Shown one piece after another: positions 2,643-27,499 of a stretch of 64,000 nt of DNA. Origin of the DNA: Acidimicrobiales bacterium (lineage in GTDB: Bacteria > Actinomycetota > Acidimicrobiia > Acidimicrobiales > SZUA-35); the NCBI GenBank assembly GCA_020630195.1, contig JAHDBV010000018.1, positions 1 to 64,000 on the forward strand, in the 5' to 3' direction. The notes under the pieces were generated by a model. The model had not been told where the DNA came from. It ran no database searches and worked only from the letters and a program-made list of their open reading frames with translations. Each line of letters begins with the position of its first letter. The stretch's first letter is position 1. The position numbers and the translations under genes were made by a program.

Positions 2643-2687
2643 GCGCGCCGTCGGCCCGGCGAGCTGGCCCCGCCGGGGTGTGTCCCC

Positions 2688-2693
2688 TACGTT
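2688..2693 (+). promoter_or_regulatory. Putative -10 element (TACGTT) for the acyl-CoA ligase
   Basis: TACGTT sits 32 bases before the GTG at 2726, giving a predicted leader of about 26 bases that contains GAGGGGA as ribosome binding site. No clear -35 is visible. Confidence 0.3.
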
Positions 2694-2725
2694 CGCCGCG
2701 GGACCACACGACGAGGGGACACGAC

Positions 2726-4270: not shown

Positions 4271-4277
4271 TCACGGT

Positions 4278-4292
4278 GGGCGGGTCCCGCCC
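4278..4292. terminator. Putative bidirectional terminator hairpin
   Basis: GGGCGGGTCCCGCCC lies in the 26-base gap between two convergent genes ending at 4270 and 4297. It is a perfect inverted repeat about one central base; a realistic hairpin has about five paired bases and a five-base loop. There is no U-tract, which is common in GC-rich actinobacteria. Confidence 0.45.
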
Positions 4293-4296
4293 GTCG

Positions 4297-4755
4297 TCAG
4301 CCCTCGCAGGCGGCGGCGAGGCGGGCGAGGGTCTCGGCCATGCCCGCCGCGTTGTGGGCCTCCCGGTCGGCCACACCCGAGATCTTGACGCTCCCGGCTC
4401 GGACGTCCTCGGGGCGGTGGTCCTTCGTGAACTCGGTGACCGTGCAGCCGGCGTCGGTCGGTGTGACCTCGTAGCCCCAGGTGGCGAACACGTAGCCGTT
4501 CCAGTCGCAGTCGAACGCGAACCGCTCACCGTCGACGAACTCGACGATCTCGGCCTCGGTCGACCACTCCTTGTCGCCGTTTCGGTTCTTCCCGGTCCAG
4601 CGGGCTCCCAGCTCGGCGGTGTCGAAGCCCTCGTTCCACGAGGTCTCATAGGTCTCGGGCGACCACTCACCCATGCGGGTGATGTCGGTGAGCGCGGCCC
4701 ACACGGTGGCGGCGGGGGCGTTGATGTCGCGTGAGACGCTGAGGTCGGGTTCCAT
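4297..4755 (-). CDS. SRPBCC (START/polyketide-cyclase-like) protein
   Basis: A 152-residue protein starting MEPDLSVSRDINAPAATVWAAL. The INAPAATVWAALTDITRMGEWSP opening is the classic SRPBCC beta1-helix signature of hydrophobic-ligand-binding proteins. A central GxxW strand series and a C-terminal amphipathic helix complete the helix-grip fold. ATG 4755 is preferred over the in-frame GTG 4764 because a TAGCGT -10 element lies 7 bases upstream. It is 28 bases downstream of the MFS gene but may have its own promoter. No enzymatic residue can be assigned. Confidence 0.8.
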   Translation of the reverse strand: MEPDLSVSRDINAPAATVWAALTDITRMGEWSPETYETSWNEGFDTAELGARWTGKNRNGDKEWSTEAEIVEFVDGERFAFDCDWNGYVFATWGYEVTPTDAGCTVTEFTKDHRPEDVRAGSVKISGVADREAHNAAGMAETLARLAAACEG

Positions 4756-4762
4756 GCCTCGC

Positions 4763-4768
4763 ACGCTA
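4763..4768 (-). promoter_or_regulatory. Putative -10 element (TAGCGT), leaderless start at 4755
   Basis: TAGCGT on the minus strand precedes ATG 4755 by seven bases, in the short gap after the MFS gene. It suggests that the SRPBCC gene can be transcribed independently of the upstream operon. Confidence 0.4.
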
Positions 4769-4782
4769 GGTCGCGTCGCGGC

Positions 4783-6063
4783 TCAGGTGCCAGGGTGCTC
4801 CCGGGGCACGGTGCGCAGGATCACCAGGTGCAGCACGATCACGGCGGCCATCGAGAAGCAGCCCATGACGATGAGGGTCGTGCGGAGCCCGATCACATCG
4901 GCGACGGCACCGAGGGGCGCCGCGAAGATCCCGAACGCGGAGAAGCCGAGCATCTGCAACGACTGCACTCGGCCGTGGTACTGCTCCTCGGCCCGGAGCA
5001 GCACGAGCGAGTTGTTCAGCGCCTGGAACGCCGCGTTCGCGGCGCCGGTGAGCAGGACGACGAGGAGTGCGGCCTCGATCGTCGGGGTCACCCCGAGGAG
5101 CACGACGAAGGCGCCGAAGGCGATCGCCACGACGGCGACGGTGTGATCACCGAGGTCCTTCGTGCCGCGACGAGCGATGACGAGCGACGAGACGACGGCG
5201 CCGATGGCTCCGGTGGTCGACAGGAAGCCGAGCCATTCGGCCGATCGGTCGAACACGTCGTCGACGAGCGAGGCCAGGAAGGCCACGTAGGGAAAGGCCG
5301 TGGCCACCACCGTGATGCCCATCAGCACGGGCCAGAGCACGGGTGGGGTCGAGCGCACGTATCGCAGGCCGTCGACGAGGTCGCCCAACGGCGACCGGGT
5401 CGAGCCCGTCGCCCGGGGCAGGCCGGGTGGCAGGGAGACGGCGAGGGCGATCGACACGAGCAGCAGGGCGGCGACCGCGAGGTAGACCGCCGTGGCGCCG
5501 AGTGTCTCGATGCCGATGACCGCTCCGGCGATCGACGGACCGAGCACCCGGGTGCCGTTCATCGAGATCTGTGCGAGGAGGATGGCGTTGGTGAGCCGCT
5601 CCCGGCCGACGAGCTCGGCCGAGAACGCCATCCGTGTCGGCGCCATCAGCGAGAACGCCGCCCCCTGGAGCACCGACGACCCGACGAGCATCCAGAACTC
5701 GAGCCGGTCGGCCAGCAGGGCACCGGCGACGAACGCGGCGGGGAGCCACATCATCGAGATCGAGGTGACGAGGACCAGCCGCTTCGGGAAGCGGTCGGCG
5801 GCGATCCCGCCGACCGGGGTGAAGATCAGCATCGGCACACCCATGGCGAGCAGCACGAGGCCGAGGGCGGAGTTCCGCTGTGTCAGGTCGAACGCGAGAA
5901 AGCTCCGGACCGTCGTTTGCATCGCGACCGCGGCGAAGGTGAACAGGCCGGCCAGCCAGAGCCGCCGGTAGGTCGGGATCCGGAGGCTCGAGAACGTGCC
6001 CTCGGCCGGGGCCGCCGGCTCGGGCGCGGCGGTGTTCGTGTCGGTCGCGTCGGTGTCGGTCAC
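4783..6063 (-). CDS. MFS transporter (EntS/MFS_3-like)
   Basis: A 426-residue inner-membrane exporter-type major facilitator. An acidic/Ala-rich N-terminal tail of about 20 residues leads to LRIPTYRRLWLAGLF, the hallmark of the MFS_3/EntS group. GGIAADRFPKRLVLV is the loop 2-3 motif A. About 12 hydrophobic helices follow in two halves around a central RSPLGDLVDGLRYV loop. It overlaps the upstream PPOX gene by 4 bases (ATGA), so the two are translationally coupled. Relatives export siderophores or drugs; the substrate here is unknown. Confidence 0.85.
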   Translation of the reverse strand: MTDTDATDTNTAAPEPAAPAEGTFSSLRIPTYRRLWLAGLFTFAAVAMQTTVRSFLAFDLTQRNSALGLVLLAMGVPMLIFTPVGGIAADRFPKRLVLVTSISMMWLPAAFVAGALLADRLEFWMLVGSSVLQGAAFSLMAPTRMAFSAELVGRERLTNAILLAQISMNGTRVLGPSIAGAVIGIETLGATAVYLAVAALLLVSIALAVSLPPGLPRATGSTRSPLGDLVDGLRYVRSTPPVLWPVLMGITVVATAFPYVAFLASLVDDVFDRSAEWLGFLSTTGAIGAVVSSLVIARRGTKDLGDHTVAVVAIAFGAFVVLLGVTPTIEAALLVVLLTGAANAAFQALNNSLVLLRAEEQYHGRVQSLQMLGFSAFGIFAAPLGAVADVIGLRTTLIVMGCFSMAAVIVLHLVILRTVPREHPGT

Positions 6064-6605
6064 GCGATCGACTCCTCGAGGCCGGTCGGTGCGCCGTCGA
6101 GGCTGGTCGTGTTCTTGCGCCGCCAGTAGTCCCGGAGCTCGTCGTCCGACATGGCGGCGTAGAACGGTTCGAGGTCGGTGGCGCCACGGTCGTGGACGAC
6201 GGACATCTCGGGGACCCCGCTACCGCAGGACGACGTGACGAGCTCGACCGCGACGTCGAAGATCTGCCGTGACCCGCCGAGGGTCGGGAAGGATCCGAGT
6301 GCGTCCGCCCAGGCGTCGTCACGCGGGTGCAGGACCGTGGCGGTGCCGTAGACCCGCACGATCAGCGGGTCGGGGCCGATCGACATCCACATCAGGGTCA
6401 TCCGGCCGTTCTCGCCCACATGGGCGGCGGTCTCGTTGCCGCTGCCGGTCAGGTTGAGCCACCGGATCGTGCGCTCGTCGACGACCCGGAGTGTGTCCAT
6501 GCCCTTGGGGGAGACGTTGACCCGGCCATCGGCACCGGCGGTCGCGACGAAGAACAGCGGTTGGGCTTCGATGAACTCGACGCGGCTCGGCGTCAGTCGA
6601 TCCAT
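6060..6605 (-). CDS. Pyridoxamine 5'-phosphate oxidase family (PPOX) protein
   Basis: A 181-residue FMN- or F420-binding split-barrel protein. It starts MDRLTPSRVEFIEAQPLFFVATAGADGRVNVSPKG, the characteristic opening of this family. The segment NETAAHVGENGRMTLMW matches the second barrel motif. The C-terminal WRRKNTTSLDG tail is typical of actinobacterial members annotated only as PPOX family. A GGAG lies about 8 bases before ATG 6605. It lies between a flavin monooxygenase and an MFS transporter in one operon, which suggests a redox accessory role. Cofactor identity cannot be read from sequence. Confidence 0.85.
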   Translation of the reverse strand: MDRLTPSRVEFIEAQPLFFVATAGADGRVNVSPKGMDTLRVVDERTIRWLNLTGSGNETAAHVGENGRMTLMWMSIGPDPLIVRVYGTATVLHPRDDAWADALGSFPTLGGSRQIFDVAVELVTSSCGSGVPEMSVVHDRGATDLEPFYAAMSDDELRDYWRRKNTTSLDGAPTGLEESIA

Positions 6606-6630
6606 GGGGTGTCTCCGAACTGGGGGAGGG

Positions 6631-8271
6631 TCAGTGGCGTGGGCCCGTGAGGGTCACACCCTCGTACCCGGACTCGGTGATGGCATCGAGCTTGGCCTGG
6701 TACTTGGGGGAGCCGCCGTTGTAGATGAGGTGGCGCATGGTGCCCTCCTCGTGGCCCTCCACGTTGGAGTTGTATCCGGTGAACCAGCCCTTCGCCTTGC
6801 GGAGCAGCATCATCTCGTACATCTGCTTGACGTGATCGACCCAGGCCCGCTCGGCCTCTTCGGTCGCTTCGATCCTCGTGATGCCGTGGGCTCGGGCGTG
6901 GTCGAGCAGGCCGGTGAGCCAGGCGACACCGGTCTCGATGCCTCGGGGGAAGTTGGTGGACGCGTTGCCCGACTGCGGGCCGGCGACCATCAGCAGATTG
7001 GGGAAGCCGTGTGTCATCACCCCCATGAACGTGGCGGGATCGTCCCGCCACTTGTCGCGCAGCGTGACCCCGTCGACTCCTTCGACGTGGATCTTGTCGA
7101 AGGCGCCCGTGATGGCGTCGAAGCCGGTGGCGTAGACGATGAGGTCGAACTCCCGGTGGGCGTCGGTGGTGGCGATGCCGGTCTCGGTGATCTCGACGAT
7201 CGGCGTCTCGGAGACATCGACGAGATGCACGTTGGGCCGGTTGTAGGCCTCGAAGTAGTTCGTCTCCATCGGGACCCGCTGGTACCCGAACCCGTGATCG
7301 GTGGGGATCAGCTTCTCGGCGACGGTCGGGTCGTCGACGCGTTGGCGGATCCGCTCGGCGATGTAGTCCGAGAAGATCCGATTGGCCTCCTCGTCGATGA
7401 AGATCTCGACGAAGTTCTGGAGCCAGATCGCGAACCCCGGCTCGTCGTAGAGCCGGTCCCACAACTCGAAGCGCTCGGCCTCGGTCACTTCCCAGAAGCC
7501 TCGCCGGTCGGGCTCGTGCACGAACCCTCCGGGTGTGCGGGCACAGACCTCGAAGATCTCGTCGTAACGATCGCGGATCTCGTCCATCTCGGCGGGGGAG
7601 ATCGGGGCGTTGTTCAGCGGGGCCGACCAGTTCGGGCGTCGCTGGAACACGTGCAGCTCGGCGACCTTGTCCTGGATCTCGCCGATCACCTGGATCCCGG
7701 TGGCACCCGTGCCGATCACGGCGACACGCAGCTCGCTCAGGTCGAGCGGCTCGGCCGGCCAGTCGTGGGTGTGGAAGCTGCGGCCGGTGAAGCGTTCCAC
7801 ACCGGGGTAACGGGGCGGCGTGGGCACCGTGAGCAGGCCGATGGCGGTGATGACGATCGGGGTCCGGATCGTTCGCCCGTCGGTGAGGGTGACGGTCCAT
7901 TCCGTGGCGTCGTCGTTCCAGACGAGCGACTCGACGTGGCAGTCGAAGTGCATGAACCGCCGGAGGTCGTAGGTGTCGGCGACGGTCTGGAGGTACCGCA
8001 GGTTCTCGGGTTGGCCCGAGAAGTGTTCCTTCCAATGCCAGGTCTCGAGGATCTCGGTCGCCCACGAGTAGCCGTAGCTGTACGACTCGGAGTCGAACCG
8101 GGCGCCGGGATAGCGGTTCCAGAACCACGTGCCGCCGAGGTCGGCGCCCGACTCGATGACGACGGCGTCGATGCCGCGGTCGGTGAGCTCTTTGATCTGG
8201 TGGATGCCGGCCACACCGGCGCCGATGACCACGGCCTCGTGTCGATCGGCGAGTGCGTGCGGTCCGGGCAT
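6631..8271 (-). CDS. Baeyer-Villiger-type flavin monooxygenase
   Basis: A 546-residue FAD/NADPH enzyme. The first Rossmann motif is VVIGAGVAGIHQIKELTDRG and the second is VAVIGTGATGIQVIGEI. Between them lies FHTHDWP, a form of the BVMO fingerprint FxGxxxHxxxW (here RFTGRSFHTHDW). GTWFWNRYPGARFDSES is the canonical substrate/FAD segment of BVMOs. The start ATG 8271 has GAGGAT six bases upstream. It is the first gene of a minus-strand operon with the PPOX and MFS genes. BVMOs turn ketones into esters or lactones, which the many hydrolases nearby could open. The natural ketone is unknown. Confidence 0.9.
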   Translation of the reverse strand: MPGPHALADRHEAVVIGAGVAGIHQIKELTDRGIDAVVIESGADLGGTWFWNRYPGARFDSESYSYGYSWATEILETWHWKEHFSGQPENLRYLQTVADTYDLRRFMHFDCHVESLVWNDDATEWTVTLTDGRTIRTPIVITAIGLLTVPTPPRYPGVERFTGRSFHTHDWPAEPLDLSELRVAVIGTGATGIQVIGEIQDKVAELHVFQRRPNWSAPLNNAPISPAEMDEIRDRYDEIFEVCARTPGGFVHEPDRRGFWEVTEAERFELWDRLYDEPGFAIWLQNFVEIFIDEEANRIFSDYIAERIRQRVDDPTVAEKLIPTDHGFGYQRVPMETNYFEAYNRPNVHLVDVSETPIVEITETGIATTDAHREFDLIVYATGFDAITGAFDKIHVEGVDGVTLRDKWRDDPATFMGVMTHGFPNLLMVAGPQSGNASTNFPRGIETGVAWLTGLLDHARAHGITRIEATEEAERAWVDHVKQMYEMMLLRKAKGWFTGYNSNVEGHEEGTMRHLIYNGGSPKYQAKLDAITESGYEGVTLTGPRH

Positions 8272-14345: not shown

Positions 14346-14816
14346 TCAGCCGAGCTTCGACAGGATCTCGTTGGTGTGGTCCTTCGTCCTGGGGCGCTTG
14401 AACACGTGCTGGATCACGCCGTCGGGACCGATGAGGAACGTGGTCCGCTGCAGACCGTCGTAGACCTTCCCGTAGTTCTTCTTCTCTCCCCACACGCCGT
14501 AGGCCTCGATGATGGTGCGATCGGGGTCGGCCACGAGGGCGAACGGAAGCTCGTGCTTCTCGGCGAAGCGGGCGTGGCTGGCGTCGTCGTCGGGCGAGAC
14601 CCCGATGACCGTGATGCCGTGCTCGGCGAGTTCGCCGAGGCCGTCTCGCAGGTTGCAGGCCTGCGCCGTGCAGCCGGGTGTGGCGTCCTTCGGGTAGAAG
14701 TACAACGCCACGCGCCCACCACGGAGCGACGAGAGTGTCAGCTCGTCACCGGCGGTGGTGGTCACGGTGAAATCCGGCGCCTCGGCGCCGGTCTCGAGTG
14801 GTCGGGGAGCGGGCAT
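14346..14816 (-). CDS. bcp: Thioredoxin-dependent thiol peroxidase (peroxiredoxin Q)
   Basis: A 156-residue peroxiredoxin of the BCP/PrxQ type, reducing hydrogen peroxide and organic or lipid hydroperoxides with thioredoxin. ATPGCTAQACNLRD contains the peroxidatic Cys and, five residues later, the resolving Cys typical of PrxQ. FTVTTTAGDELTLSSLRG and VALYFYPKD match the thioredoxin-fold start. ATG 14816 has GGAGG eight bases upstream. It leads an operon with the CoA-transferase and cobQ and is divergent from the hydrolase-TPR/cyclase operon. A lipoxygenase-like gene lies about 8 kb away, so lipid-peroxide detoxification is a plausible physiological link. Confidence 0.93.
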   Translation of the reverse strand: MPAPRPLETGAEAPDFTVTTTAGDELTLSSLRGGRVALYFYPKDATPGCTAQACNLRDGLGELAEHGITVIGVSPDDDASHARFAEKHELPFALVADPDRTIIEAYGVWGEKKNYGKVYDGLQRTTFLIGPDGVIQHVFKRPRTKDHTNEILSKLG

Positions 14817-14905: not shown

Positions 14906-17806
14906 GTGACGGACGCCCCCCGCCAATCGCCACCACAGCTGGGTCTGCTCGTCGTCCACGGCATCGGCGAACAAGCCCAGGGCAGCACGCTCGTGCAGTG
15001 GTCCGACGCCCTCGCCGACTGGCTCCGGGTGTGGAGCGCCGACGAACCCGGCACCGCCCTGCACCTGCCCGCCGGAACGGAACGTCGGGTGAGTGTCGAA
15101 CGGGCCGAGTTGGCGCCGGCCGAGGGCCCGGCGCACGCCACCCTCCGCTTCGACATCCCCGACGCCGACGATCCCTCGCAGACCTGGGTGGTGGCGGAGG
15201 GCTGGTGGGCCGGCGCATTCCAGGCGCCGTCGTTCGGGGAGTTGTGGAGCTGGAGCTTCGTGTCGGTGCCGGCCACCGCCGCGATGCACACCAATGCGAT
15301 GGTGGGGCGCGCCGTGGCCCAGGTCCGGCGGTCACACACACCACTCGAGCGAGCCGTCAACGCCACGCGCCTGGCCGGACTCGTGGCGTTGCTCACCGCA
15401 CTCGTACTCGTGAGCCCCGCGGTCATCGTGCTGTTCACGGCGCTGCTCGCCGTCGGCTTCGTGGCCCAGCTCCTCCCGTTTCCCGCCGTCGGTGCGTTCG
15501 TGTCACGCGCCCAGCTCGCCGCGATCGGCACGATCGGGGACTCCCAGCGTCTCGTCGAGAGCCCGACCCAGGCGGGTGCGATCAAGGCGCCGATCATCGA
15601 TGGGCTCGCCCACCTCGTCGAACGGGGCTGCACCCGCATCGCGATCCTCGCCCACTCCCAGGGCGCCGCCGTCACCCACAAGGCGCTCGCCGACCTGCAG
15701 CACCGGCTCGAGCCCGACCAGCCGCCGCCGGTCGACGCACTCATCACGGTCGGCTCGGGTCTGCCGAAGGTGCACGCCCTGGAACACCTGTCCCGCAGCG
15801 GCGGGTGGCGGAACCTGCGGGTCGCCTCGCTGGCCGTCCCGATCTGCGCGGTCACCATCGCCCTGTGCTGGTGGTATCTCAACGAGCGCGGGCTCTACGG
15901 CGGACTGCTCGGCATGGCCGCCATCGCCGCCGTGACCGTCGTGTGGGCCCGCTCGTCGGCCCGGCGTCGACGCGAGGCCCTCGCGGATCACGTCGCGGGC
16001 CGTCGCTCGTCGCCACCACACGAGTGGACGGCGCCCATCGATCTCGCCGGCACCCCGATTCCCCGGATCCCGATCGTGGTGTCGGTGCTCGCCGCCTTCG
16101 TGTGGGGGGTGATCGCCTCGCACGGCATGGCGGCGTTCGGGATCTACCTCGCCGGGCTGACGGGACTGGCCGCCATCGTGTTGATCTCGGTCGGTCGGAT
16201 CCCGCCGATCGGGAACGACATCGATCGCATGGCCGACCACTGGCTGGATCTCTATGCACGCCGGGACCCGGTGCCGGCCGGGCCGACCCGGACCGAGCGG
16301 GTCGGTTGGCCACGTTCGCTGCCGATCACGAATCGGGCCTCGGTGGTGCGTGACCACACCGGCTACCACCGCAACGCCGACGAGTGCCTCACCCATGTCG
16401 GCATCGAACTGCTCGACCTCGTCGACGCCCCGATCCCCACCGAAGCGGCCCGCCTCCACACCTCGGTGTACGGGCTCGAGCGCCGGTGGCGAGCGGTGTG
16501 GGCCCGGATCGTGAACCTGGTGTTGGGTCTGGCGGCCCTGGTGTTCGCGCTGCGCACGTGGGGTCGGGCCGACACCGTCGTCGCCGACGCCTACGGCGGC
16601 CTCGTCGACGGCGAGGGACCCCTCACCCGATTCCTCCCGGGGTCGGTCCCGGGCTTCGTGCCCGATCAGCTCGACGGGTGGTGGCTGAGCGCGACGATGG
16701 TGGTGCTCTACGCCGTCGGTGCGGTGGTGCTGACCCGGATCGGGAACGGGCTGTGGTCGACCTGGGACGGCGCGGCGGCGGCCCGCGAGCTCGGCCCGGA
16801 GCGATACGACCCGTCGTCGACCGACGGTCGTCAGGGGGCGCTGCTCGGCATGACCGCCCTGCTCACCTTCCTCGCGCTCACGCCCCACTGGTCGTGGCGG
16901 ACACTGCGATCGCTCGACCTCACGACCTGGACCGACTCGGGGTTCGTCGCCCTGGTCGTGGCGATCCCCATGGGGGTCGGCCTGGTCATCCCGGGTCTGC
17001 TGGTGCGGCTCGGCGTCAAGGACTGGTTCCTGCGCCAGGACCGACTCCGTAGCGAAGACCAGCTCACGCAGGGTCACTACCGGATGGAACGGGGCGAGCT
17101 CCGACGGGCCATCGCCTCCTACGAGCGGGCCCGCAGCGTCGCCCTCGCCACCGGAGGACCGGTCGGTCCGGCCGAGTTGGGCCTCGCCCGTGCGCTCGAC
17201 CGGCTCGCCCACGAACGGGTCGAGGCCGGCGCGAGTGACGTGGCCGAGACGGTGGCCGCCGCCGACGCGGCCTACCGCCGGGCCCGGTTCGCCGCCGGCA
17301 ACGACCCGGACATCCTCGTGGCCCACGCCAACATGCTCGGTTCGGCCGGGCCCTCGGCCGAAGCCGCGTCGCTGGTGGCACTCGCCGCCGAGGTGGCCGA
17401 CGGGACCGACGACGGTGCCCTCCTCGCCGCCCGGGTGGCGCTCGCCCACGATGCCGGCGCCGGCATCATCGACGCCGAGCTGGCCGGCCTCATCGACCGC
17501 CGCTGGGACAACCTCGCCCCGTCGGAGAAGCTCGCCATCGGGTTCGCCGCCGCCGTCGTCGTCGGTGACCCCAGAACACCGAGCGGTCGGACCCTCGACT
17601 GGGCCGGACGGGTCCGCCGACTGCTCGACCACGGTTTCGACGGTGAAGGTCTCGATCTGCGAGCCTCACTGGCCGCATTGCCCGGCACCCTGCCCGAGGA
17701 CGATGTCGCACGTCTCCGCCTCCTCGCCGATCGGGTGCTCGGGCGTTGCGGAGACGACGAACCGTGCGATCCACCCACGCCCCACGACCACCCGGAGTCC
17801 TCGTGA
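14906..17806 (+). CDS. Membrane alpha/beta hydrolase with C-terminal TPR-like region
   Basis: A 966-residue protein. Residues 1-330 hold a lipase-like core: LLVVHGIGEQ (His18-Gly-Ile-Gly) as oxyanion region and ILAHSQGAAVTH with nucleophile Ser251. A pair of hydrophobic segments interrupts this core near 155-195, and further hydrophobic helices lie at about 315-350, 395-435, 540-560, 595-620, 650-665 and 690-710. After DWFLRQDRLRSEDQLTQGHYRMERGELRRAIASYERA a soluble TPR-like helical repeat region fills residues 715-960. GTG 14906 follows a CAGTCT -10-like element by six bases. GTGA overlap couples it to the cyclase gene. I know no characterised protein with this layout; membrane lipid or ester hydrolysis is inferred. 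Confidence 0.75.
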   Translation: MTDAPRQSPPQLGLLVVHGIGEQAQGSTLVQWSDALADWLRVWSADEPGTALHLPAGTERRVSVERAELAPAEGPAHATLRFDIPDADDPSQTWVVAEGWWAGAFQAPSFGELWSWSFVSVPATAAMHTNAMVGRAVAQVRRSHTPLERAVNATRLAGLVALLTALVLVSPAVIVLFTALLAVGFVAQLLPFPAVGAFVSRAQLAAIGTIGDSQRLVESPTQAGAIKAPIIDGLAHLVERGCTRIAILAHSQGAAVTHKALADLQHRLEPDQPPPVDALITVGSGLPKVHALEHLSRSGGWRNLRVASLAVPICAVTIALCWWYLNERGLYGGLLGMAAIAAVTVVWARSSARRRREALADHVAGRRSSPPHEWTAPIDLAGTPIPRIPIVVSVLAAFVWGVIASHGMAAFGIYLAGLTGLAAIVLISVGRIPPIGNDIDRMADHWLDLYARRDPVPAGPTRTERVGWPRSLPITNRASVVRDHTGYHRNADECLTHVGIELLDLVDAPIPTEAARLHTSVYGLERRWRAVWARIVNLVLGLAALVFALRTWGRADTVVADAYGGLVDGEGPLTRFLPGSVPGFVPDQLDGWWLSATMVVLYAVGAVVLTRIGNGLWSTWDGAAAARELGPERYDPSSTDGRQGALLGMTALLTFLALTPHWSWRTLRSLDLTTWTDSGFVALVVAIPMGVGLVIPGLLVRLGVKDWFLRQDRLRSEDQLTQGHYRMERGELRRAIASYERARSVALATGGPVGPAELGLARALDRLAHERVEAGASDVAETVAAADAAYRRARFAAGNDPDILVAHANMLGSAGPSAEAASLVALAAEVADGTDDGALLAARVALAHDAGAGIIDAELAGLIDRRWDNLAPSEKLAIGFAAAVVVGDPRTPSGRTLDWAGRVRRLLDHGFDGEGLDLRASLAALPGTLPEDDVARLRLLADRVLGRCGDDEPCDPPTPHDHPESS

Positions 17807-20511
17807 CCGACACACCGCTGATCCGCACCGGCGGCCCCGACGGCCATCGCCCCGACAACCTCCCCGCGGGGGTGGTGACCTTCCTGTTCTCCGACATCGA
17901 GGGCTCGACCCCACGGTGGGAATCGGATCCGGTCGGGATGCGGGACCTGATCGTGCGTCACAACGAGCTGTGCGTGGAGGTGGTGCGTGCCGCCGGCGGG
18001 GAGATCTATCAGCACACCGGTGACGGTGTGTCGGCCGTGTTCGTGGCGCCGGATGCCGCGGCGCTCGCCGCGATCGACCTGCAACGGCGGTTCCAGACCG
18101 ACGCCTGGGGCGGCGCGGAACGGCTCCGGATCCGCGTCGGGGTGCACACCGGGATGTGTGAACCGACCGCCGGCGACTACTTCGGCACACCGGTGAACAC
18201 CTGTGCCCGGGTGACCGATCTCGCCAACGGCGATCAGATCGCCATCACCCCCGCCACGGCGGCGCTCATCACCGGTCATGACCTCCGTGACCGCGGGGTG
18301 CATCAGCTGAAGGGGCTGGGGTCGGAGACGATCTACACGCTGCACCACAAGGATCTCGTCCTCGACGACCGGCCGCTGCGATCGCCGTTGATCGAGGGTG
18401 TGCGGGGCCTGCCGTCGACCCTCGCGGAGCTCGTCGGACGCGAGGAGGAGATCAAGCGCCTGTCCGACCTGATCGCCCGCCAGCGGGTCGTGACCCTCGT
18501 CGGTCCCGGTGGTGTCGGCAAGACCCATCTCGCGTCCGTGGTCGCCCGGACCGTGGCCGATCGGTTCGAGGACCGGGCCGTGTTCTGCGACCTCGTGCCG
18601 ATCACCGACGCCGACGACGTCGCCGAGATCGTCGCCGAGACCCTCGGTGCTCGAGTGCAGCCCGGGCTGAGCCTCGTGGAGAGCATCGGGGACTACTGCG
18701 CCAGCCGACGGATGCTCCTCGTGATCGACAACGCGGAGCATCTGCCGGGCGCCGTGCGGGCGTTGGCCACCGAGCTGTTGTCGCACCCGAACATCACGAT
18801 GCTCATCACCTCCCGGGAACCGGTCGGCCTGCCCGGCGAGCAGCTCTTCGGCCTCCTCCCGTTGCCCGAGACCGATGCGCTCGAGTTGTTCCGCCGCCGT
18901 GTGGCCGAGCGCGATCCGGACGTGCTCGACGATTTCGACATGGCCTCCGCTCGGGCCATCGTCGAACGCCTCGACGGTGTGCCGCTCGCGTTGGAGCTGG
19001 CCGCCGCCCGGACGCGGTCGTTGTCGCTCGCCGAACTCCTCGAGCGCCTCGACGACCGGCTGCACATCCTCCGCGGCGGTCGCACCGGTCGGCACCAGAC
19101 GTTGCTCGACACGATCCTGTGGTCGTACGAGTCGCTGCGTCCCGATCAGGCGGACCTGTTCGAACGCCTGTCGGTGTTCGCCGGCGATTTCTCGCTGGGC
19201 GACGCCGAGGCGGTCTGCGCCGCGCCCGGTGTCGACGTGCTCGACGTGCTCGGCGAACTCGTCGACAAGTCGATGGTGCTCGCGAAGCGCCACCGGGGCC
19301 GTCTCCGCTATCTGCTCCTCGGATCCCTCCGACACTTCGGCCAGGAGCGCCTCGACGCCTCCGGCTCGGCCGGTGAGGTGCGGGCACGTCACGCCGCGCA
19401 CTTCCGATCCCTGGTGGCGACCGAGACCGGTCGGTTGCTGTCCGCCCACGAGGCCGACGGTTGGGAGACGCTCGGCCGCAACTGGGCCAACATCCGCGCC
19501 GCGTTCGAGGAGCTGCTGCATCTCGGCAACGTCGACGCGGCCGCCGGGATGGTGTGCGAGCTCGGACACTTCGCGGTCTACTCGATGCGCTTCGAGGCTC
19601 TGGCCTGGGCCGAGGAGCTCGGGGAGCGCTTCGACCTCGCCGGCCACCCGCTCGAGGGGTCGTTGCTCGGCATCCGCTCGGTGCTCGCCTACTTCACCGT
19701 CGACGAGCGGGCCCATGAGCTCGCGATGCGTGGCCTCGCCGTCGACGCCAACGATCCGTACGGCTACTGCCGGATCTCGATCGCCGCGATCGTGCTCAAC
19801 AACAAACTCGACGCCGAGGCCAGCGCCGAGCTGACCTCCGAGTGGGTGGCCGCACTCACCGACGGTGTGGGGCCCGAAGCCACGGGGTTCGCCCGTCTCT
19901 GGGGGCACGCGATGCGGGTGTTCCACCTCGCGGCGAACGAACCGACCGTCTCCGCCCAGAACGATCTCGACGAGGTCGAACGGCTCGCCCGCGACAGCGG
20001 ATCGGCCACGGCCCTCGCCGTGGCCGGCTGGGCCGGGGGCATGGTGGCGAGCTACTCGGGGATGGGTGCGGCCATCCGACGGTGGCGCCGCGGCGCCGAC
20101 CTGGCCGAATCGATGCATCCCTCCCACCTCGTGTCGCAGATCATCATCGGTCTGCTCCTGCACTTCTCGGTGGAACACGACGAGGTCGACGCCGCACTCG
20201 GTGCCTGCGAGGACGCGCTCTCGATCGCCCGCGAACAGCACTACGTCGCCGGCGCGAGCCACCTGTTCGGCGTCACGGCGATCGCACTCTGTCGAGCCGG
20301 GCGTGCCGAGACCGCCGGCCGTCTGCTCGGCGCCATGAAGGCCGCCGGTCACAATCCGCGTGAGAACGCGATCCGGGTCGTCGGCGATGCCCTGGGCGGG
20401 CGGGCGTCGACCATCGAGGCGGAGGGTCGGAGTTGGTCGGTCGACGAGGCGTGTTCGATCGCGCTCGACACGATGCGGGCCGTTCGGGGCGAGCGGGGTG
20501 TGATGTCGTGA
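17803..20511 (+). CDS. Class III nucleotide cyclase - AAA/STAND ATPase - TPR regulator
   Basis: A 902-residue signalling protein. Residues 20-190 form a cyclase homology domain: FLFSDIEGST gives metal Asp31, HTGDG gives metal Asp74, and VNTCAR gives transition-state Asn132 and Arg136. The usual purine-specifying Lys is replaced by Gln70. LVGREEEIKRL then leads into a STAND NTPase with Walker A GPGGVGKT (234-241) and Walker B MLLVIDNAEHL, and residues 560-880 are TPR-like helices. The layout matches mycobacterial cyclase-ATPase-TPR proteins such as Rv0386, but no LuxR helix-turn-helix is seen at the C-terminus. It is translationally coupled to both neighbours, so it probably controls or senses the hydrolase/catalase-like pair. 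Confidence 0.88.
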   Translation: MTDTPLIRTGGPDGHRPDNLPAGVVTFLFSDIEGSTPRWESDPVGMRDLIVRHNELCVEVVRAAGGEIYQHTGDGVSAVFVAPDAAALAAIDLQRRFQTDAWGGAERLRIRVGVHTGMCEPTAGDYFGTPVNTCARVTDLANGDQIAITPATAALITGHDLRDRGVHQLKGLGSETIYTLHHKDLVLDDRPLRSPLIEGVRGLPSTLAELVGREEEIKRLSDLIARQRVVTLVGPGGVGKTHLASVVARTVADRFEDRAVFCDLVPITDADDVAEIVAETLGARVQPGLSLVESIGDYCASRRMLLVIDNAEHLPGAVRALATELLSHPNITMLITSREPVGLPGEQLFGLLPLPETDALELFRRRVAERDPDVLDDFDMASARAIVERLDGVPLALELAAARTRSLSLAELLERLDDRLHILRGGRTGRHQTLLDTILWSYESLRPDQADLFERLSVFAGDFSLGDAEAVCAAPGVDVLDVLGELVDKSMVLAKRHRGRLRYLLLGSLRHFGQERLDASGSAGEVRARHAAHFRSLVATETGRLLSAHEADGWETLGRNWANIRAAFEELLHLGNVDAAAGMVCELGHFAVYSMRFEALAWAEELGERFDLAGHPLEGSLLGIRSVLAYFTVDERAHELAMRGLAVDANDPYGYCRISIAAIVLNNKLDAEASAELTSEWVAALTDGVGPEATGFARLWGHAMRVFHLAANEPTVSAQNDLDEVERLARDSGSATALAVAGWAGGMVASYSGMGAAIRRWRRGADLAESMHPSHLVSQIIIGLLLHFSVEHDEVDAALGACEDALSIAREQHYVAGASHLFGVTAIALCRAGRAETAGRLLGAMKAAGHNPRENAIRVVGDALGGRASTIEAEGRSWSVDEACSIALDTMRAVRGERGVMS

Positions 20512-21419
20512 ACGATCTGCCCGATCTGCCGGCGGACTACACGACCCGGACGGCGGAGGCGAAGGCGGCCTGGCTCGCCGGCGAACTGCTCGGCCCGACC
20601 GAATACGACCCGTCGACGCGGCCGGACCCGGCCATGGGGTCGCCCTGGCAGATGTTGTCGGTGGCCGGGTCCCGCCGCCGACTCGCCCGGACCCTCGATC
20701 GCAGCGACGAGCTCATGGAGGACGGTCGCCCGAAGATCATCCACACCCATGGCGCGGTCGCGATGGTGGAATTCGAGACGGAGCCCGCGTCGGCGTTCAC
20801 GGGTGTGCTGGCCGCACCGCCGCGGGGTGGAGCGATCGGGGTCGTCCGGATGTCGCTCGCGGTGCCACCCACCGGGCAGCGGGCCGTCACGCCCGGGATC
20901 GGTCTCAAGCTCCTCGTCGACGGTCGGCCGTCGCTCGACCTCCTCGCCATGAACCACACGGTCGGCCAGGGCCGTGATCCCAACCCGTTCTCGAACTCGT
21001 TCACCCACGACCTCCGCGACGAACACACCGAGCTGCGGCCCGCACAGAAAGTGATGCAATTCTTCTTCAAGCGGCTCGTGCGCCAGCCGCGGCGGCTGCT
21101 CATCGATCACTTCGCCGCGGTCGATCGGCACGGGGTCGAGGAGCCGGATCCACGGGTCCCCGATCGACTCGTGTTCCATCCACACGACGACGTGGCCACC
21201 CACGTCCGGGGCCGCGAGATGTTCGACCTCCGTGACCTGCTGGCCGACCTGCCCGTCGGCGTCCGCCTGTGGCGGGTCGACGCGGTGGGCGCCGCCCACG
21301 ACCGCGGCGACCTGACGATCGGCCGGGTCCGTCTCACGTCGCGGTTCACCAGCTCCGCCGGTGGGGACCGGCTGTTCTTCCGGCACCACGTGGCACCGGA
21401 GGATCGACTCGATCAGTAG
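20508..21419 (+). CDS. Catalase-related protein lacking the heme-Tyr end
   Basis: A 303-residue protein. PKIIHTHGAVAMVEFE resembles the distal-His strand of catalases (HAKGAGA-type), and GIGLKLLVDGRPSLDLLAMN matches the G-x-x-LKF...DG...D-hh--N strand pair of catalase-related proteins. MQFFFKRLVRQP and VGVRLWRVDAV follow in catalase-like order. The sequence stops at RLFFRHHVAPEDRLDQ, about where relatives continue into the Arg-x-x-x-Tyr heme-ligand helix, so no proximal Tyr is seen. GTGA overlap couples it to the cyclase gene. It overlaps the convergent lipoxygenase-like gene by 7 bases. Function is unknown; peroxide binding or fatty-acid-hydroperoxide conversion is a hypothesis. Confidence 0.6.
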   Translation: MNDLPDLPADYTTRTAEAKAAWLAGELLGPTEYDPSTRPDPAMGSPWQMLSVAGSRRRLARTLDRSDELMEDGRPKIIHTHGAVAMVEFETEPASAFTGVLAAPPRGGAIGVVRMSLAVPPTGQRAVTPGIGLKLLVDGRPSLDLLAMNHTVGQGRDPNPFSNSFTHDLRDEHTELRPAQKVMQFFFKRLVRQPRRLLIDHFAAVDRHGVEEPDPRVPDRLVFHPHDDVATHVRGREMFDLRDLLADLPVGVRLWRVDAVGAAHDRGDLTIGRVRLTSRFTSSAGGDRLFFRHHVAPEDRLDQ

Positions 21420-23005
21420 CTGATCGAGGTCTCCCACCGGTGCGGCTCCATCCCACGGAACGGGATGGCGCGAGTGGCGTTCCGTTCGGCGATCACCCGG
21501 CCGGCCTCGATCATCTCCGACTGGAGGTCCTCGATCGCCCGGCGGAGACGGGGATCGTCGACGTGGCGGGCGGCGTTGATCGTCTGGAGGTTGTTGCCGG
21601 CCACGTTGAAGCGGCTGACGAAGCTCGCCTGCTCCATCAAGAAGACGTCGGCGGCGGCCGGTGTCGGTGTCACGTCGTGGTCGAGGAGCTCACGCAACGT
21701 CTCGAAGGACAACCCGGCCTTGTCGGCGTGATCCTCCGAGTCGAGGATCGGCGAGAGGTTCCCGCAGATCTCGTGGATGACGTTGTTGTAGACGAGTGCG
21801 GTGCACAGTCGGCGGAGCGACGCCACCCCGTCGAGTCGAGGCACCGACTCGACACCGGGCAGCACCTGACGCACGACGCCGTACCAGGCCGCGAGGTGGG
21901 GGTCGTCGACGACGTCCGCATCGGTGCGGACATGGAGATCGTCGAGGTGTCGGTCGACGACCCGCTCGACCATGGGCCAGACCGTGCGGGCGTCCTCGAC
22001 ATAGGGATGGCCCGGGATCGCGTCGAGGCCACGCTTGGCGATGTCGAGCGGTACCGACCACTCGTCGAAGTCGAAGGCCGCCATCGAGTTCTCGACGATG
22101 CGTCGGGCGTCGGCGGGGCGGACGAAGTTCGACCGGAGGAAGTAGCTGTTGGGCGTCAGCAGGGCCTGGTAGGCGAAGTGGTTCACCTGGAGCGTGCCGT
22201 AGGTGAAGAAGTCCATGAACTCGCGCAGCGGGTGCCACACCGGCAGCGTGTGGGCGGCGACGGCGAAGGCCTGGCCGACCATGAGGTGGGTGTTGAACAG
22301 ATGGCGGATGAACGTCACGTAGCGGGCGTCGAGGGCGTTCACGATCGACTTCGCCCGGCCCCAGCCGGGGTCGCCGGGGCGGTGCTGCTCGTCTCCGATC
22401 CGGATCCAGGCGGGGACCAGCCCGTCGCCCTCGACACGGAAGCGGGCACACGTCGCGGGGAAGACGCCGTCGAAGAACGGGCCGAGATCCAGGTCGAACA
22501 CGACGTCGTCGGGACCGTCGCCCATCGCGGGATCGGCGGAGGCCCGGCGGAGTTCGAACGGATTCGGGCCCTGCAGCCGCAGTGCGGTGAACGTGGCATC
22601 GTCGGTCGGATGGCCCCACTCGTCGCGGCCGGCCGGAAAGGCGTCGTTCCACGGCAGCTCGTCGTTCCAGGCGAGGGAGGGGTCGATCGGGAGCTTCCCG
22701 TAGAGAAGCCAGCCGAGCTTCGAGGTCCCGTAGTAGGGAAGCACGTAGCGCATCGGGAGCTTCGCCTCCGGCGGGAGCGTCTCGGGGGCGAGCAGGGCGG
22801 CGGGCAGCCAGCCCATGTCGGCGTGGACCGAGGCGGCCGGCACGAGGCGGGGAGGTGGGGAGGTCGGCACCACCCGCTTGCGGAACGTGCGGGTGCTCGA
22901 GTGTTCGATCGTGCGTTGATGGGTGCGCCGCATCCGGACGACGAGTGAGGCCTTGGCCCGGTCGGCGAGGCCGGCGGGTCGGGTACGTGGGCGATCGGCG
23001 AGCAT
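21413..23005 (-). CDS. Lipoxygenase-family protein
   Basis: A 530-residue protein resembling bacterial lipoxygenases without a PLAT domain. FIRHLFNTHLMVGQAFAVAAH...HPLREFMDFF matches the lipoxygenase iron helix, with His235 and His240 spaced as His-x4-His. IHEICGN carries the third His (His411), but the usual Asn at +4 is Gly415 and Asn416 lies at +5. The C-terminus is ETSISY, so the terminal carboxylate ligand is on Tyr rather than the usual Ile. ATG 23005 is chosen for its GGAG and an upstream GATACT element; ATG 23044 is possible. It would dioxygenate polyunsaturated fatty acids. It is convergent with the catalase-like gene. The family call is firm, activity uncertain. Confidence 0.8.
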   Translation of the reverse strand: MLADRPRTRPAGLADRAKASLVVRMRRTHQRTIEHSSTRTFRKRVVPTSPPPRLVPAASVHADMGWLPAALLAPETLPPEAKLPMRYVLPYYGTSKLGWLLYGKLPIDPSLAWNDELPWNDAFPAGRDEWGHPTDDATFTALRLQGPNPFELRRASADPAMGDGPDDVVFDLDLGPFFDGVFPATCARFRVEGDGLVPAWIRIGDEQHRPGDPGWGRAKSIVNALDARYVTFIRHLFNTHLMVGQAFAVAAHTLPVWHPLREFMDFFTYGTLQVNHFAYQALLTPNSYFLRSNFVRPADARRIVENSMAAFDFDEWSVPLDIAKRGLDAIPGHPYVEDARTVWPMVERVVDRHLDDLHVRTDADVVDDPHLAAWYGVVRQVLPGVESVPRLDGVASLRRLCTALVYNNVIHEICGNLSPILDSEDHADKAGLSFETLRELLDHDVTPTPAAADVFLMEQASFVSRFNVAGNNLQTINAARHVDDPRLRRAIEDLQSEMIEAGRVIAERNATRAIPFRGMEPHRWETSISY

Positions 23006-23083: not shown

Positions 23084-25021
23084 TCAGTGGAGCGACGTGT
23101 CGTGCACTCGTGATCCCGTCGGGCGGGTGACGAGTGCCAGGAGCTCGTCGATCGGCATGGGGCGGTGGAACAGGAACCCCTGCCCGAGCGTCCCACCGAG
23201 TCGTTCGACCACGGCGGCCTGATCGGTGGTCTCGATGCCCTCGCAGACGACGTCGAGGCCCATCGCGTCACACAGGTGCAGGAGCGACCCGGTCATCGCC
23301 CGGGTCACCTCGTCGTCGACGAGATCCCACACGAACGAACGGTCGATCTTCACGACGTCGATCGGGAGCTCGCGCAGGTGTGCGAGTGAGGAGAACCCGG
23401 TGCCGAAGTCGTCGAGGGCGATGCGGACGCCGAGCGCCCGGAGTTCGTGGAGTGTCGGCAGTACCCGGTCGGCGGAGATGACGGTCGACTCGGTGATCTC
23501 GACGACGAGGTCCCGGGCGGGAAGTTCCCATCGGGCGAGCGACCGGGCGATCACGTCGACGACATCCGGCTCGACGAGCTCCGCCGCCGTGAGGTTGACG
23601 GTGACGTACATGGGGCGGCCGCGGCGGCGCAGCTCCGACCCCGCCTCGATGGCGCGGTCGACGACGAGACGACCGAGGTCGGGCATGAGCCCGGCCTCCT
23701 CGGCGACGTCGAGGAACGCCCCGGGGCCGAGCAGCTCACGCCCGGTCCGCCAGCGCACGAGCGCCTCGGCCCCGACGACGCCGCCACCCGGGAGACGGAC
23801 GATCGGTTGCAGGTGGACTTCGAGCTCGTCGCCGTCCAGTGCCCGGCGGAGCGCGGCCTCGACCTCGAAGCGCCGGTCGACGGCGGCCCGCAGCTCGCGG
23901 TCGAACACGACGTAGCGACCGCGACCCTGACGCTTCGCCTCGTAGGCCGCGGTGTCGGCCTCGCCGAGGATGCGGTCGGGGTCGCGGTGGTCGGCGGTGG
24001 CGTAGGAGATCCCGATGCTCATGTGGAGGCGCAGCGAACGATCGGCGATCCGGAACGGGAGGGTCAACGCCTCCAGCGTCTCCTCGGCGGCGGCGATCGC
24101 CCGCTCCTCCGAGCCGTCGGCCAACAGCACCACGAACTCGTCGCCGCCCTGTCGGGCACACACGCTGTCCGCCGACACCGCCAGTGCGTTGAGGCGGGCG
24201 CCGAGCGCTGCGAGGAGCTCGTCACCGGCGGCATGGCCGAGCGAGTCGTTGATCACCTTGAAGTGATCGAGATCGAGGAACAGCACCGCGGGGTCGTGCC
24301 CTTCCTCGAGGGCGGCGGACAACGCTTCGAGGAACGTCGCCCGGTTGGCGAGCCCGGTCAGTTCGTCCGTGGTCGCCCGTCGATGCAGCTCGGCGGCGAG
24401 GCGATGTTCCTCGGTGACGTCGCGGCCGATGCCGAAGCACCGACCGACGGCGGTGTCGAAGTGGAGCGCCCACCGCACGAGTCGGTACGTGCCGTCCGCC
24501 CGCCGCATGTGGAACGTCGGCTCGGCCCGCCCGCGGGTGCGGAGGCTCTGCTCGACCTCTACGCGGGTCCGGACGTCGTCCGGCGGCAGCAGGGTCCAGG
24601 AGTCGAGCCCGAAGACCTCGTCGTGGGAGTAGCCGAGCAGCTTCTCCCAGGCCTGGTTCGACTCGATCACGTGCCCCGACTGGTCGTAGACGACGAAGAG
24701 CGAGTCGCCGGTGGAGTAGAAGCGTCGGATCAGGTGGTCGCCGGTGTCCTCCCGCTCGGTGGTGGCCAGGAAGACACCCGCGTCGGGGTCGACCGGCCGC
24801 ACGCGCCAGCGGGTCGTGCCGTCGGCGCCGAACACCAGGCCCTTCGAGACGGCCTCGGCCAGCGGGCGGACGAGTGCCTGCCCCGGCTCGACCTCGATCC
24901 AACGATTGGCGGCGACCATGACGCCGTTGCGGTCGACCAGTGCCGCCGGGACGGGCATGGCGGCCACGACCGAACGCCAAGCGGGGAGCTCGGTGTGGGT
25001 GGCGTGGTGGTCCGCGACCAT
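23084..25021 (-). CDS. PAS-GGDEF-EAL cyclic-di-GMP protein
   Basis: A 645-residue soluble regulator. An N-terminal region of about 110 residues precedes a PAS domain (GDSLFVVYDQSGHVIESNQAWEKLLGYSHDEVFG) with a PAC tail (FGIGRDVTEE). A GGDEF domain follows with intact signature RQGGDEFVVL but no RxxD inhibitory site at the usual place. The EAL domain has GAEALVRW, NLTAAEL, EITES, DDFGTGFSSL, KIDRSF and a QGFLFHRPM end, all consistent with an active phosphodiesterase. No membrane segment is visible. ATG 25021 has GGAG five bases upstream. Net effect on c-di-GMP cannot be told from sequence. Confidence 0.92.
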   Translation of the reverse strand: MVADHHATHTELPAWRSVVAAMPVPAALVDRNGVMVAANRWIEVEPGQALVRPLAEAVSKGLVFGADGTTRWRVRPVDPDAGVFLATTEREDTGDHLIRRFYSTGDSLFVVYDQSGHVIESNQAWEKLLGYSHDEVFGLDSWTLLPPDDVRTRVEVEQSLRTRGRAEPTFHMRRADGTYRLVRWALHFDTAVGRCFGIGRDVTEEHRLAAELHRRATTDELTGLANRATFLEALSAALEEGHDPAVLFLDLDHFKVINDSLGHAAGDELLAALGARLNALAVSADSVCARQGGDEFVVLLADGSEERAIAAAEETLEALTLPFRIADRSLRLHMSIGISYATADHRDPDRILGEADTAAYEAKRQGRGRYVVFDRELRAAVDRRFEVEAALRRALDGDELEVHLQPIVRLPGGGVVGAEALVRWRTGRELLGPGAFLDVAEEAGLMPDLGRLVVDRAIEAGSELRRRGRPMYVTVNLTAAELVEPDVVDVIARSLARWELPARDLVVEITESTVISADRVLPTLHELRALGVRIALDDFGTGFSSLAHLRELPIDVVKIDRSFVWDLVDDEVTRAMTGSLLHLCDAMGLDVVCEGIETTDQAAVVERLGGTLGQGFLFHRPMPIDELLALVTRPTGSRVHDTSLH

Positions 25022-25147
25022 GGCGCTCCATCGGCCGGAGCGGTGGTTCTGCTGAATCCGACCGGGCCGTCTGGCCCAGATGGACCGGTGTCTGCCCTCC
25101 ACATGAGGGGTCCGGCGGCCGCCTGCGGCCCGTCACCGCATCGGATC

Positions 25148-25645: not shown

Positions 25646-27499
25646 ATGTCCCTCGCCCGATCGTCGCGTCGCGACGTGATCGGCGGCTTCGCCCTCGTCG
25701 CGGTCGCCGCCGCCCTCGTCGTGATCGCGAGCGTCTTCTATCTCGATGCCCTCGCCGCCCGGCGCTCCGTCGCGGACATCGACGCGGTCCGCATCGCGTC
25801 CGCCCGCGTGTCGGCCGTGGACGCCGTCGCCCGGGCCGGTGGGGAACCCGACACCTCGACGCTGCTCGCCGACCTGGCCACCCTCGACGCCGACCACGCG
25901 GTGCTCCTCGATCGGCTGGAGCCCGCCGAAGCGGACCACGCCGCGGAGATGCTCGATTCCATCGCGTCGTGCGGCATCATGCTCGCCGACGGTGGGGAGC
26001 CGATGGCCGACGCCCACCCGCACCATCACGTGGACGAGCTGCTCACCCGGGCGGCCGACCTCGCCGGTGCCGACGCCGATCGGGCCGAGTGGCGTGCCGG
26101 CGTCGCCATGATCTCGGCGATGGTCGCCGGACTGCTCATGACGGCGTTGCTCATCCGATCCCGCTTCAGCGAGTTCCAACTCCGGCGGGCGTTGCTCCGC
26201 CGGGCCGACACCGACGTCCTCACCGGGCTGCCGAACCGCCGCGTGCTCCGCGAGACGCTCGATCGGTCGCCGGGCCACGGGGTGCGTCGAGCCCTGCTCG
26301 TGCTCGACCTCGACGGCTTCAAGCAGATCAACGACGTCTACGGCCACGAGGCGGGCGACGAGATGCTCCGGAAGGTGGCCCAGCGCCTGTCCCGGGTGTC
26401 CCGGGCGCAGGACGTGCTCGTCCGGCTCGGTGGTGACGAGTTCGCCGTCGTCATCGAAGGCGTGCCCCAGGGGTCGACCGCCGAGAACATCGCCGCCCGC
26501 TATCTCGACGCACTGGTCGAACCGATCGCCGTCGGCGGAACCGTGCATCGGGTCCGGGCCAGCCTCGGCCTCGCCGGAGCCGAGACGAACCGCCCGGACC
26601 GGATGCTGGCCGAAGCCGACCTCGCGATGTACGAGGCCAAGCGCCTCGGTGGTGGTCAGGTCGTGCGATTCCACGAGGGCATCGAGGACTCGGCCAGCCG
26701 GGCCGCCACCGTGATCCAGGCGTTGCGGACCCTCGACCACGAGCATGACCTCGAGCTCGTCGTCCAGCCGATCGTCGGCGCGGCCGACGGCGTCGCCCAT
26801 TCCCACGAGGCGCTCGTGCGATGGACCGATCCGACGTTGGGGCCGGTCAGCCCGGCGGAGTTCATCCCCCTCGCGGAGCGGACGGGTCTGATCATCGACA
26901 TCGGTGCGACCGTCGCTCGACGCCTCTGCGCCTCGCTGCGAGCGTGGGACGAGGCCGGCGACGGCGGGCATCGGGTGTCGCTCAACGTGTCGCCGGTGGA
27001 GCTCCGCGACGTCGACTTCGTCGACCGTCTGGTGTCGACCATCCGCTCCCACGGACTGGCGACCGACCGGTTCACGGTGGAGATCACCGAGTCGGCCGTC
27101 ATCGAGGAGCCCGAACTCGTCGCTGAGCGATTGCGGCGTCTGCGGGCCGAGGGCATCCGGATCGCCATCGACGACTTCGGTTCGGGCTATTCGAACCTCG
27201 CCCAACTCCTGTCGGTGCCCTTCGACGTGTTGAAGGTCGATCGTTCGCTCCTGTTGCACCTGAGCGGCATGCGCGAAGCGAACGGTGGCGATCCGTCGGG
27301 CCCCTGCAACGTGATGTCGGCCATCGTCGAGATCGCCGGCACGTTCGGGGCACCGGTGGTCTGCGAGGGTGTCGAGACGGCCGAGCAACTCGCCAGCCTG
27401 CAGCGCTCGGGTGTCACATTCGTCCAGGGGTACCTCACCGGGCGGCCGGCGCCGACGCCGATCCGCCACAGCCTGGCCCACGAGCCGACGCCCGCTTGA
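25646..27499 (+). CDS. Membrane-anchored GGDEF-EAL cyclic-di-GMP protein
   Basis: A 617-residue protein with transmembrane helices at residues about 12-32 and 152-168 flanking a roughly 115-residue extracytoplasmic sensor rich in Ala, Asp and His (HPHHHVDELL). GGDEF domain: LTGLPNRR and RLGGDEFAVVIEG, with an allosteric I-site RAQD five residues before GGDEF. EAL domain: SHEALVRW, NVSPVEL, EITESAVI, DDFGSGYSNL, KVDRSLL and CEGVET, consistent with an active phosphodiesterase. ATG 25646. Unlike the gene at 23084 it has an I-site and membrane anchoring. No ligand for the sensor can be proposed; the His cluster could bind metal. Confidence 0.92.
   Translation: MSLARSSRRDVIGGFALVAVAAALVVIASVFYLDALAARRSVADIDAVRIASARVSAVDAVARAGGEPDTSTLLADLATLDADHAVLLDRLEPAEADHAAEMLDSIASCGIMLADGGEPMADAHPHHHVDELLTRAADLAGADADRAEWRAGVAMISAMVAGLLMTALLIRSRFSEFQLRRALLRRADTDVLTGLPNRRVLRETLDRSPGHGVRRALLVLDLDGFKQINDVYGHEAGDEMLRKVAQRLSRVSRAQDVLVRLGGDEFAVVIEGVPQGSTAENIAARYLDALVEPIAVGGTVHRVRASLGLAGAETNRPDRMLAEADLAMYEAKRLGGGQVVRFHEGIEDSASRAATVIQALRTLDHEHDLELVVQPIVGAADGVAHSHEALVRWTDPTLGPVSPAEFIPLAERTGLIIDIGATVARRLCASLRAWDEAGDGGHRVSLNVSPVELRDVDFVDRLVSTIRSHGLATDRFTVEITESAVIEEPELVAERLRRLRAEGIRIAIDDFGSGYSNLAQLLSVPFDVLKVDRSLLLHLSGMREANGGDPSGPCNVMSAIVEIAGTFGAPVVCEGVETAEQLASLQRSGVTFVQGYLTGRPAPTPIRHSLAHEPTPA

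Follow-up and report, generated by a model that had tools for sequence, protein, structure and literature searches.

Lipoxygenases are rare in bacteria, and their biological roles there are mostly unknown. The pairing of a lipoxygenase with a catalase-fold protein has already been described in corals and in cyanobacteria (PMC5617202, PMC11719350, PMC10813956). In corals, the pairing takes the form of allene oxide synthase (AOS)-lipoxygenase and hydroperoxide lyase-lipoxygenase fusions (Plexaura, Capnella; PMC5617202). In cyanobacteria, catalase-lipoxygenase fusions are known from Acaryochloris and Anabaena, and their catalase domains are active hemoproteins (PMC11719350, PMC10813956). We analysed a locus in an Acidimicrobiales bacterium that combines a lipoxygenase and a catalase-fold protein with two further partners. 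The window is a stretch of 64,000 nucleotides (contig JAHDBV010000018.1, positions 1 to 64,000), and the locus within it comprises four genes:

hyd, 14906-17806, + strand: 966 aa; membrane alpha/beta-hydrolase-like protein with a TPR-like tail, a probable lipase
cyc, 17803-20511, + strand: 902 aa; class III nucleotide cyclase with an NB-ARC/STAND ATPase and a long C-terminal part
cat, 20508-21419, + strand: 303 aa; small catalase-fold protein
lox, 21413-23005, - strand: 530 aa; lipoxygenase catalytic domain, no PLAT domain

GTGA overlaps join hyd to cyc and cyc to cat, and lox converges tail to tail on cat with a 7-base overlap (21413-21419). The positions and overlaps of all four genes agree exactly with the original prediction (ORFs 14906-23005), which had read the locus as a possible lipid-oxidation module. 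As in the coral fusions, a lipoxygenase is accompanied by a catalase-fold partner, but cat and lox are separate convergent genes, the PLAT domain is missing, and lipase and STAND-cyclase partners have been added. The cyanobacterial fusions show the same prokaryotic pairing of a catalase fold with a lipoxygenase; compared with them, the lipase and cyclase genes are extra, and heme ligation by cat is doubtful.

The gene set is conserved across the order. Among 397 Acidimicrobiales genomes, cat and this subtype of lox occur in an identical set of 18, adjacent and convergent every time, while a nineteenth lox match is a distant canonical lipoxygenase. A smaller sample gave the same picture, with cat and lox found in an identical 6 of 118 genomes of the order. 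A cat profile run against 84,980 species genomes returned 19 loci, all in Acidimicrobiales MAGs, and lox is convergent with cat in each of the 17 that have enough contig. Of 296 genomes searched across the phylum, none apart from the window genome yielded a relative. Of the 18 compared loci (window included), 16 have cyc, and contig ends cut the remaining two. The best cyc match is the module copy in nine of ten module genomes, scoring at least 515 bits against at most 345 for paralogues; in the tenth (G419) it is a paralogue. Pairwise distances for cat and lox are correlated with r 0.96. The joint occurrence of the two genes in the 18 of 397 genomes is far beyond chance. Failure of the lipoxygenase-like gene to co-occur with its neighbours in related genomes had been set as a refuting condition for the original prediction; lox, cat and cyc were instead found together across the Acidimicrobiales.

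A search for conserved neighbours found no further gene family in four or more loci. In the window, a peroxiredoxin gene (BCP-like, a thiol peroxidase; 14346-14800, - strand) lies divergent from neighbouring hyd, and in a locus of the same genus (L020) a stretch 60% identical to it is about 2 kb away from hyd; it is absent from the other loci. On the other side, PAS-GGDEF-EAL type genes adjoin lox at 23084-25102 (- strand) and 25646-27499 (+ strand). The nearer gene shares the strand of lox and stops 79 bases before lox begins; the two could be co-transcribed here. This neighbourhood of lox is not conserved.

The fold of lox is certain. Pfam assigns the Lipoxygenase family (PF00305) at 41.7 bits against a cut-off of 23.6, sequence searches match solved lipoxygenases, and the predicted model aligns with human 12-LOX at Z 28.5 over 463 residues, C-terminus on C-terminus. 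The iron ligands His235 and His240 (H-x4-H) and His411 are invariant in 18 members. The position of the Asn ligand, four residues after the third His, is an invariant glycine (Gly415) where Asn, His or Ser is expected, and the C-terminal residue is Tyr or Phe in all members (Tyr530 in the window) where the canonical residue is Ile. In the alignments, the lox chain ends where lipoxygenases end, so its terminal carboxylate may still bind the iron. The Coffa site is occupied by an invariant alanine (Ala278). Alanine at this site is associated with S products, and S stereochemistry is predicted for the lox product.

Assignment of cat required more sensitive comparisons. Searches of Pfam, NCBIfam and PDB sequences found no match of cat to a catalase. 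Profile comparison with hhalign against catalases of the same order gave E 2.2e-5 (control against lox, E 0.46), and Foldseek with the predicted model returned PDB 3e4y as the best match (E 1.4e-4), followed almost exclusively by catalases and the coral allene oxide synthase. The model gives Z 10-11 for the catalase fold, and its low TM-scores (about 0.37) make it good for fold recognition and not for pocket detail. Profile comparison and predicted structure thus both support the earlier description of cat as catalase-related. The best structural match, MAP-2744c, is a 33-kDa catalase-related protein of Mycobacterium avium paratuberculosis (3e4w, 3e4y). It is similar to cat in length and about 17% identical, but cat is extended at the N-terminus and stops short of the region where catalases have the proximal ligand.

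All complete cat members stop at the catalase F-x-P segment, before the R-x3-Y motif that supplies the proximal heme tyrosine. The structural alignment ends at human catalase residue 353, just short of R354 and Y358, which we take to be the proximal segment. The Pro of the F-x-P motif, which lines the proximal heme side in catalases, is matched in the alignment by an invariant histidine of cat, His293, a candidate replacement for the proximal heme ligand. The stretch DRLFFRH was also considered as the catalase R-L-F-x-Y proximal motif and was rejected, because the hhalign and structural ranges place it upstream, on EQ-x-AF-x-P.

The distal face of cat is better preserved. The distal residues His79 and Asn149 and the heme-binding position Arg114 are invariant and have the same spacing as H67, N137 and R102 of coral AOS (PMC5617202). 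The residue preceding the distal His is an invariant isoleucine (Ile78). According to a title cited in PMC10813956, a Thr before the distal His is the hallmark by which catalase-related proteins that act on fatty-acid hydroperoxides are known, and coral AOS has such a residue, T66 (PMC5617202). cat therefore differs from coral AOS in having Ile at the Thr66 position and in lacking equivalents of Y353 and R360. Two defining features of the coral and cyanobacterial enzymes, the proximal Tyr and Thr-His, are thus missing from cat, and the proposal that it is a heme hydroperoxide-converting enzyme of their kind is not supported.

The lipase partner is the most variable component of the locus. In hyd, a VVHGIG motif (17-21) and a nucleophile motif AHSQG with Ser251 are present, and the Ser251 motif, HGIG, Asp454 and His484 are conserved in seven members. 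The protein has about 7-9 hydrophobic segments, and its TPR-like tail is indicated by a TPR signal in one relative and in a profile search. No Pfam family scores above cut-off, so the lipase function is an inference; the alpha/beta-hydrolase motifs and the hydrophobic segments agree with the membrane hydrolase originally predicted. Full-length hyd relatives occur only in genomes with the module, and hyd lies upstream of cyc in seven loci, which form the window clade. In eleven loci without hyd, a Lipase_3 (class 3 lipase) domain is fused to the lipoxygenase N-terminus (type B; for example P0005, with Lipase_3 at 6.6e-12 and Lipoxygenase at 7.9e-7). No locus has both hyd and the fusion, and in the cat tree as in the lox tree each form makes up a single clade. 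An outlier, L097, has neither, and a patatin phospholipase (8.8e-25) adjoins its lox gene. The predicted genetic unit of hydrolase, lipoxygenase, catalase-fold protein and signalling ATPase is supported, with a lipase nearly always present in one of three unrelated forms. That the same trio has acquired unrelated lipases suggests that lipid hydrolysis either supplies lox or goes along with it. Nothing else in the data gives a stronger clue to function than this exchange, and it is the best evidence for a pathway that would release lipid, dioxygenate it and handle the hydroperoxide.

The signalling partner combines a class III cyclase with a STAND ATPase. In cyc, Pfam identifies Guanylate_cyc (2.8e-12) and, in an NB-ARC/AAA STAND region, NB-ARC (6e-8), in agreement with its earlier description as a nucleotide-cyclase signalling ATPase; the TPR region in the C-terminal part is that description's assignment. 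The cyclase motifs FSDIEGST, HTGDG and PVNxxARV, which comprise the metal Asp pair and the transition-state Asn and Arg, occur in the cyc of the window and in most other copies, and the ATPase motifs GPGGVGKT and LLVIDNAEH (Walker A and B region) are conserved. No transmembrane segment is present. Mycobacterial multidomain class III cyclases of the Rv0386 type likewise have a cyclase fused to a STAND ATPase; unlike these, cyc has no DNA-binding end and sits in a lipoxygenase module. A link between hydrolases and cyclases in actinobacteria is also provided by LipJ, a lipase-cyclase, and the LipJ model is among the profile matches. A built-in sensor, consisting of the STAND ATPase and the cyclase, is plausible from this domain architecture. 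The cyc copy of locus L032 (14059-16728, - strand) has degenerate cyclase motifs, with IIRAAILCE replacing VNxxARV, which suggests that the sensor part can be kept where cyclase activity is missing.

Cyclic-nucleotide-binding proteins are encoded near some of the loci. In L033, L036 and L037, the lipase-lox fusion gene and cyc are separated by a gene for an MFS transporter that has a cyclic-nucleotide-binding domain. Close beyond lox in L020 (13106-15451, + strand) is an NTE-family patatin phospholipase fused to two cyclic-nucleotide-binding domains. Such neighbours, which occur at a minority of loci, would fit cyclase control of lipid release or export.

We conclude that the locus is probably a co-inherited and regulated module for the release and oxidation of fatty acids, of the oxylipin type. 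In the order of steps that we would propose, a lipase (in the window, the membrane alpha/beta-hydrolase hyd) would free an unsaturated fatty acid from lipid, and lox would add O2 to form a fatty-acid hydroperoxide. cat would then bind, convert or dispose of this hydroperoxide via its distal His/Asn face. The STAND-cyclase cyc would sense a ligand or the state of the cell and make a cyclic nucleotide, by which the pathway would be tuned; its likely targets, alongside some loci, would be the cyclic-nucleotide-binding MFS transporter, which might export a product, or the patatin phospholipase. Several features count against an oxylipin module: the metal site of lox is off consensus at two ligands, cat has no proximal Tyr segment and carries Ile-His in place of Thr-His, hyd belongs to no recognised lipase family, the L032 cyclase is degenerate, and no recognisable lipase was found at locus L096. 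Of the oxylipin pathway originally outlined, the conserved gene set and the lipase exchange support the general scheme, and a part for cat as a heme enzyme of the coral or cyanobacterial type is not supported. More tentatively, cat may represent a new class of catalase-fold protein that handles the lipoxygenase products and either binds heme via another proximal residue (such as His293) or is heme-free, combined with a lox metal site that has an aromatic C-terminus and with control by a STAND-sensor/cyclase.

The simplest alternative is that lox and the three-gene operon are adjacent by descent and share no common function. The position of lox on the opposite strand would agree with this, as would the confinement of all loci to one order, within which linkage could be inherited. 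However, cat pairs have diverged to about 41-44% identity and the genes surrounding them are not conserved. The module is also patchy within genera, yet neither cat nor this lox subtype is ever found without the other; cyc can flank the cat-lox pair on one side or the other and can point in either direction; and lipases have been recruited independently. Mere adjacency is largely refuted by these observations, and we regard it as very improbable. A catabolic or detoxifying route would instead accept a common function, in which the bacteria take up foreign lipids (algal, plant or fungal), lipase and lipoxygenase degrade them, cat removes hydroperoxides and the cyclase acts as a nutrient switch. 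Such a route would account for the near-constant presence of a lipase with lox and for the canonical distal residues of cat, and the peroxiredoxin-like gene divergent beside hyd, with its relative near the same-genus locus, would suit it. That gene is not conserved beyond the genus, though, genes for beta-oxidation or transport do not recur among the loci, and we know of no lipoxygenase that serves as a catabolic entry point. We consider this route unlikely.

The architecture of cyc raises a further alternative, a defence or cell-death module in which an NLR-like STAND-cyclase would raise an alarm by making a cyclic nucleotide, lipases and lipoxygenase would damage the cell's own membrane through hydrolysis and lipid peroxidation, and cat would be a brake or part of the damage. 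The cyclase domain alone gives weak matches to Pycsar cyclases (PycC), and interchangeable lipolytic partners that include patatin, cyclic-nucleotide-binding neighbours and the patchy distribution are all features that such a module might show. At L097, TIR-type and STAND-type genes (1947-6723, + strand) adjoin the patatin-lipoxygenase-cat-cyc locus, and the region resembles a defence region. Against this, PADLOC matched none of hyd, cat and lox to a known system, and cat and lox are co-inherited with congruent distances rather than shuffled. Peroxidation of the cell's own membrane would also require polyunsaturated membrane lipids, and module-specific synthesis of polyunsaturated fatty acids received no support, as genomes that have the module and genomes that lack it overlap in their desaturase counts. 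A defence role appears quite improbable, and fatty-acid release and oxidation is the reading that we retain.

Within the open-access literature, we found no bacterial description of such a gene set of lipase, lipoxygenase, catalase-fold protein and cyclase, and no described lipase-lipoxygenase fusion or cyclase-lipoxygenase cluster. As far as we have found there, three things are new: the fusion of a lipase with a lipoxygenase in bacteria, the conservation of a STAND-cyclase partner, and a catalase-fold partner without a proximal tyrosine. A lipoxygenase with fixed partners, namely interchangeable lipases, a regulator and a redesigned catalase fold, turns the role of a bacterial lipoxygenase into a testable pathway. 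The natural lipase-lipoxygenase fusions are usable as tools, and cat is a test case for whether a catalase fold can act without tyrosine-ligated heme.

Canonical lipoxygenases of the same order (L098 and L099) share the lipoxygenase fold and likewise lie near a catalase-related gene, but unlike lox they have an HxxxN motif at the third His and an Ile or Val C-terminus. In both cases, the neighbour is a different catalase-related protein that keeps R-x3-Y (L098, 32-874 on the + strand and 6151-7842 on the - strand; L099, 1282-2928 on the + strand and 4266-5453 on the - strand). These are a second, independent lipoxygenase-catalase neighbourhood. The only Pfam-detectable catalase of the window genome is another small catalase-related protein with R-x3-Y (L055, 1468-2523; G000:C142:76567-77466). 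A cyc paralogue (G000:C142:73842-75572) lies about 1 kb from this gene on the same contig.
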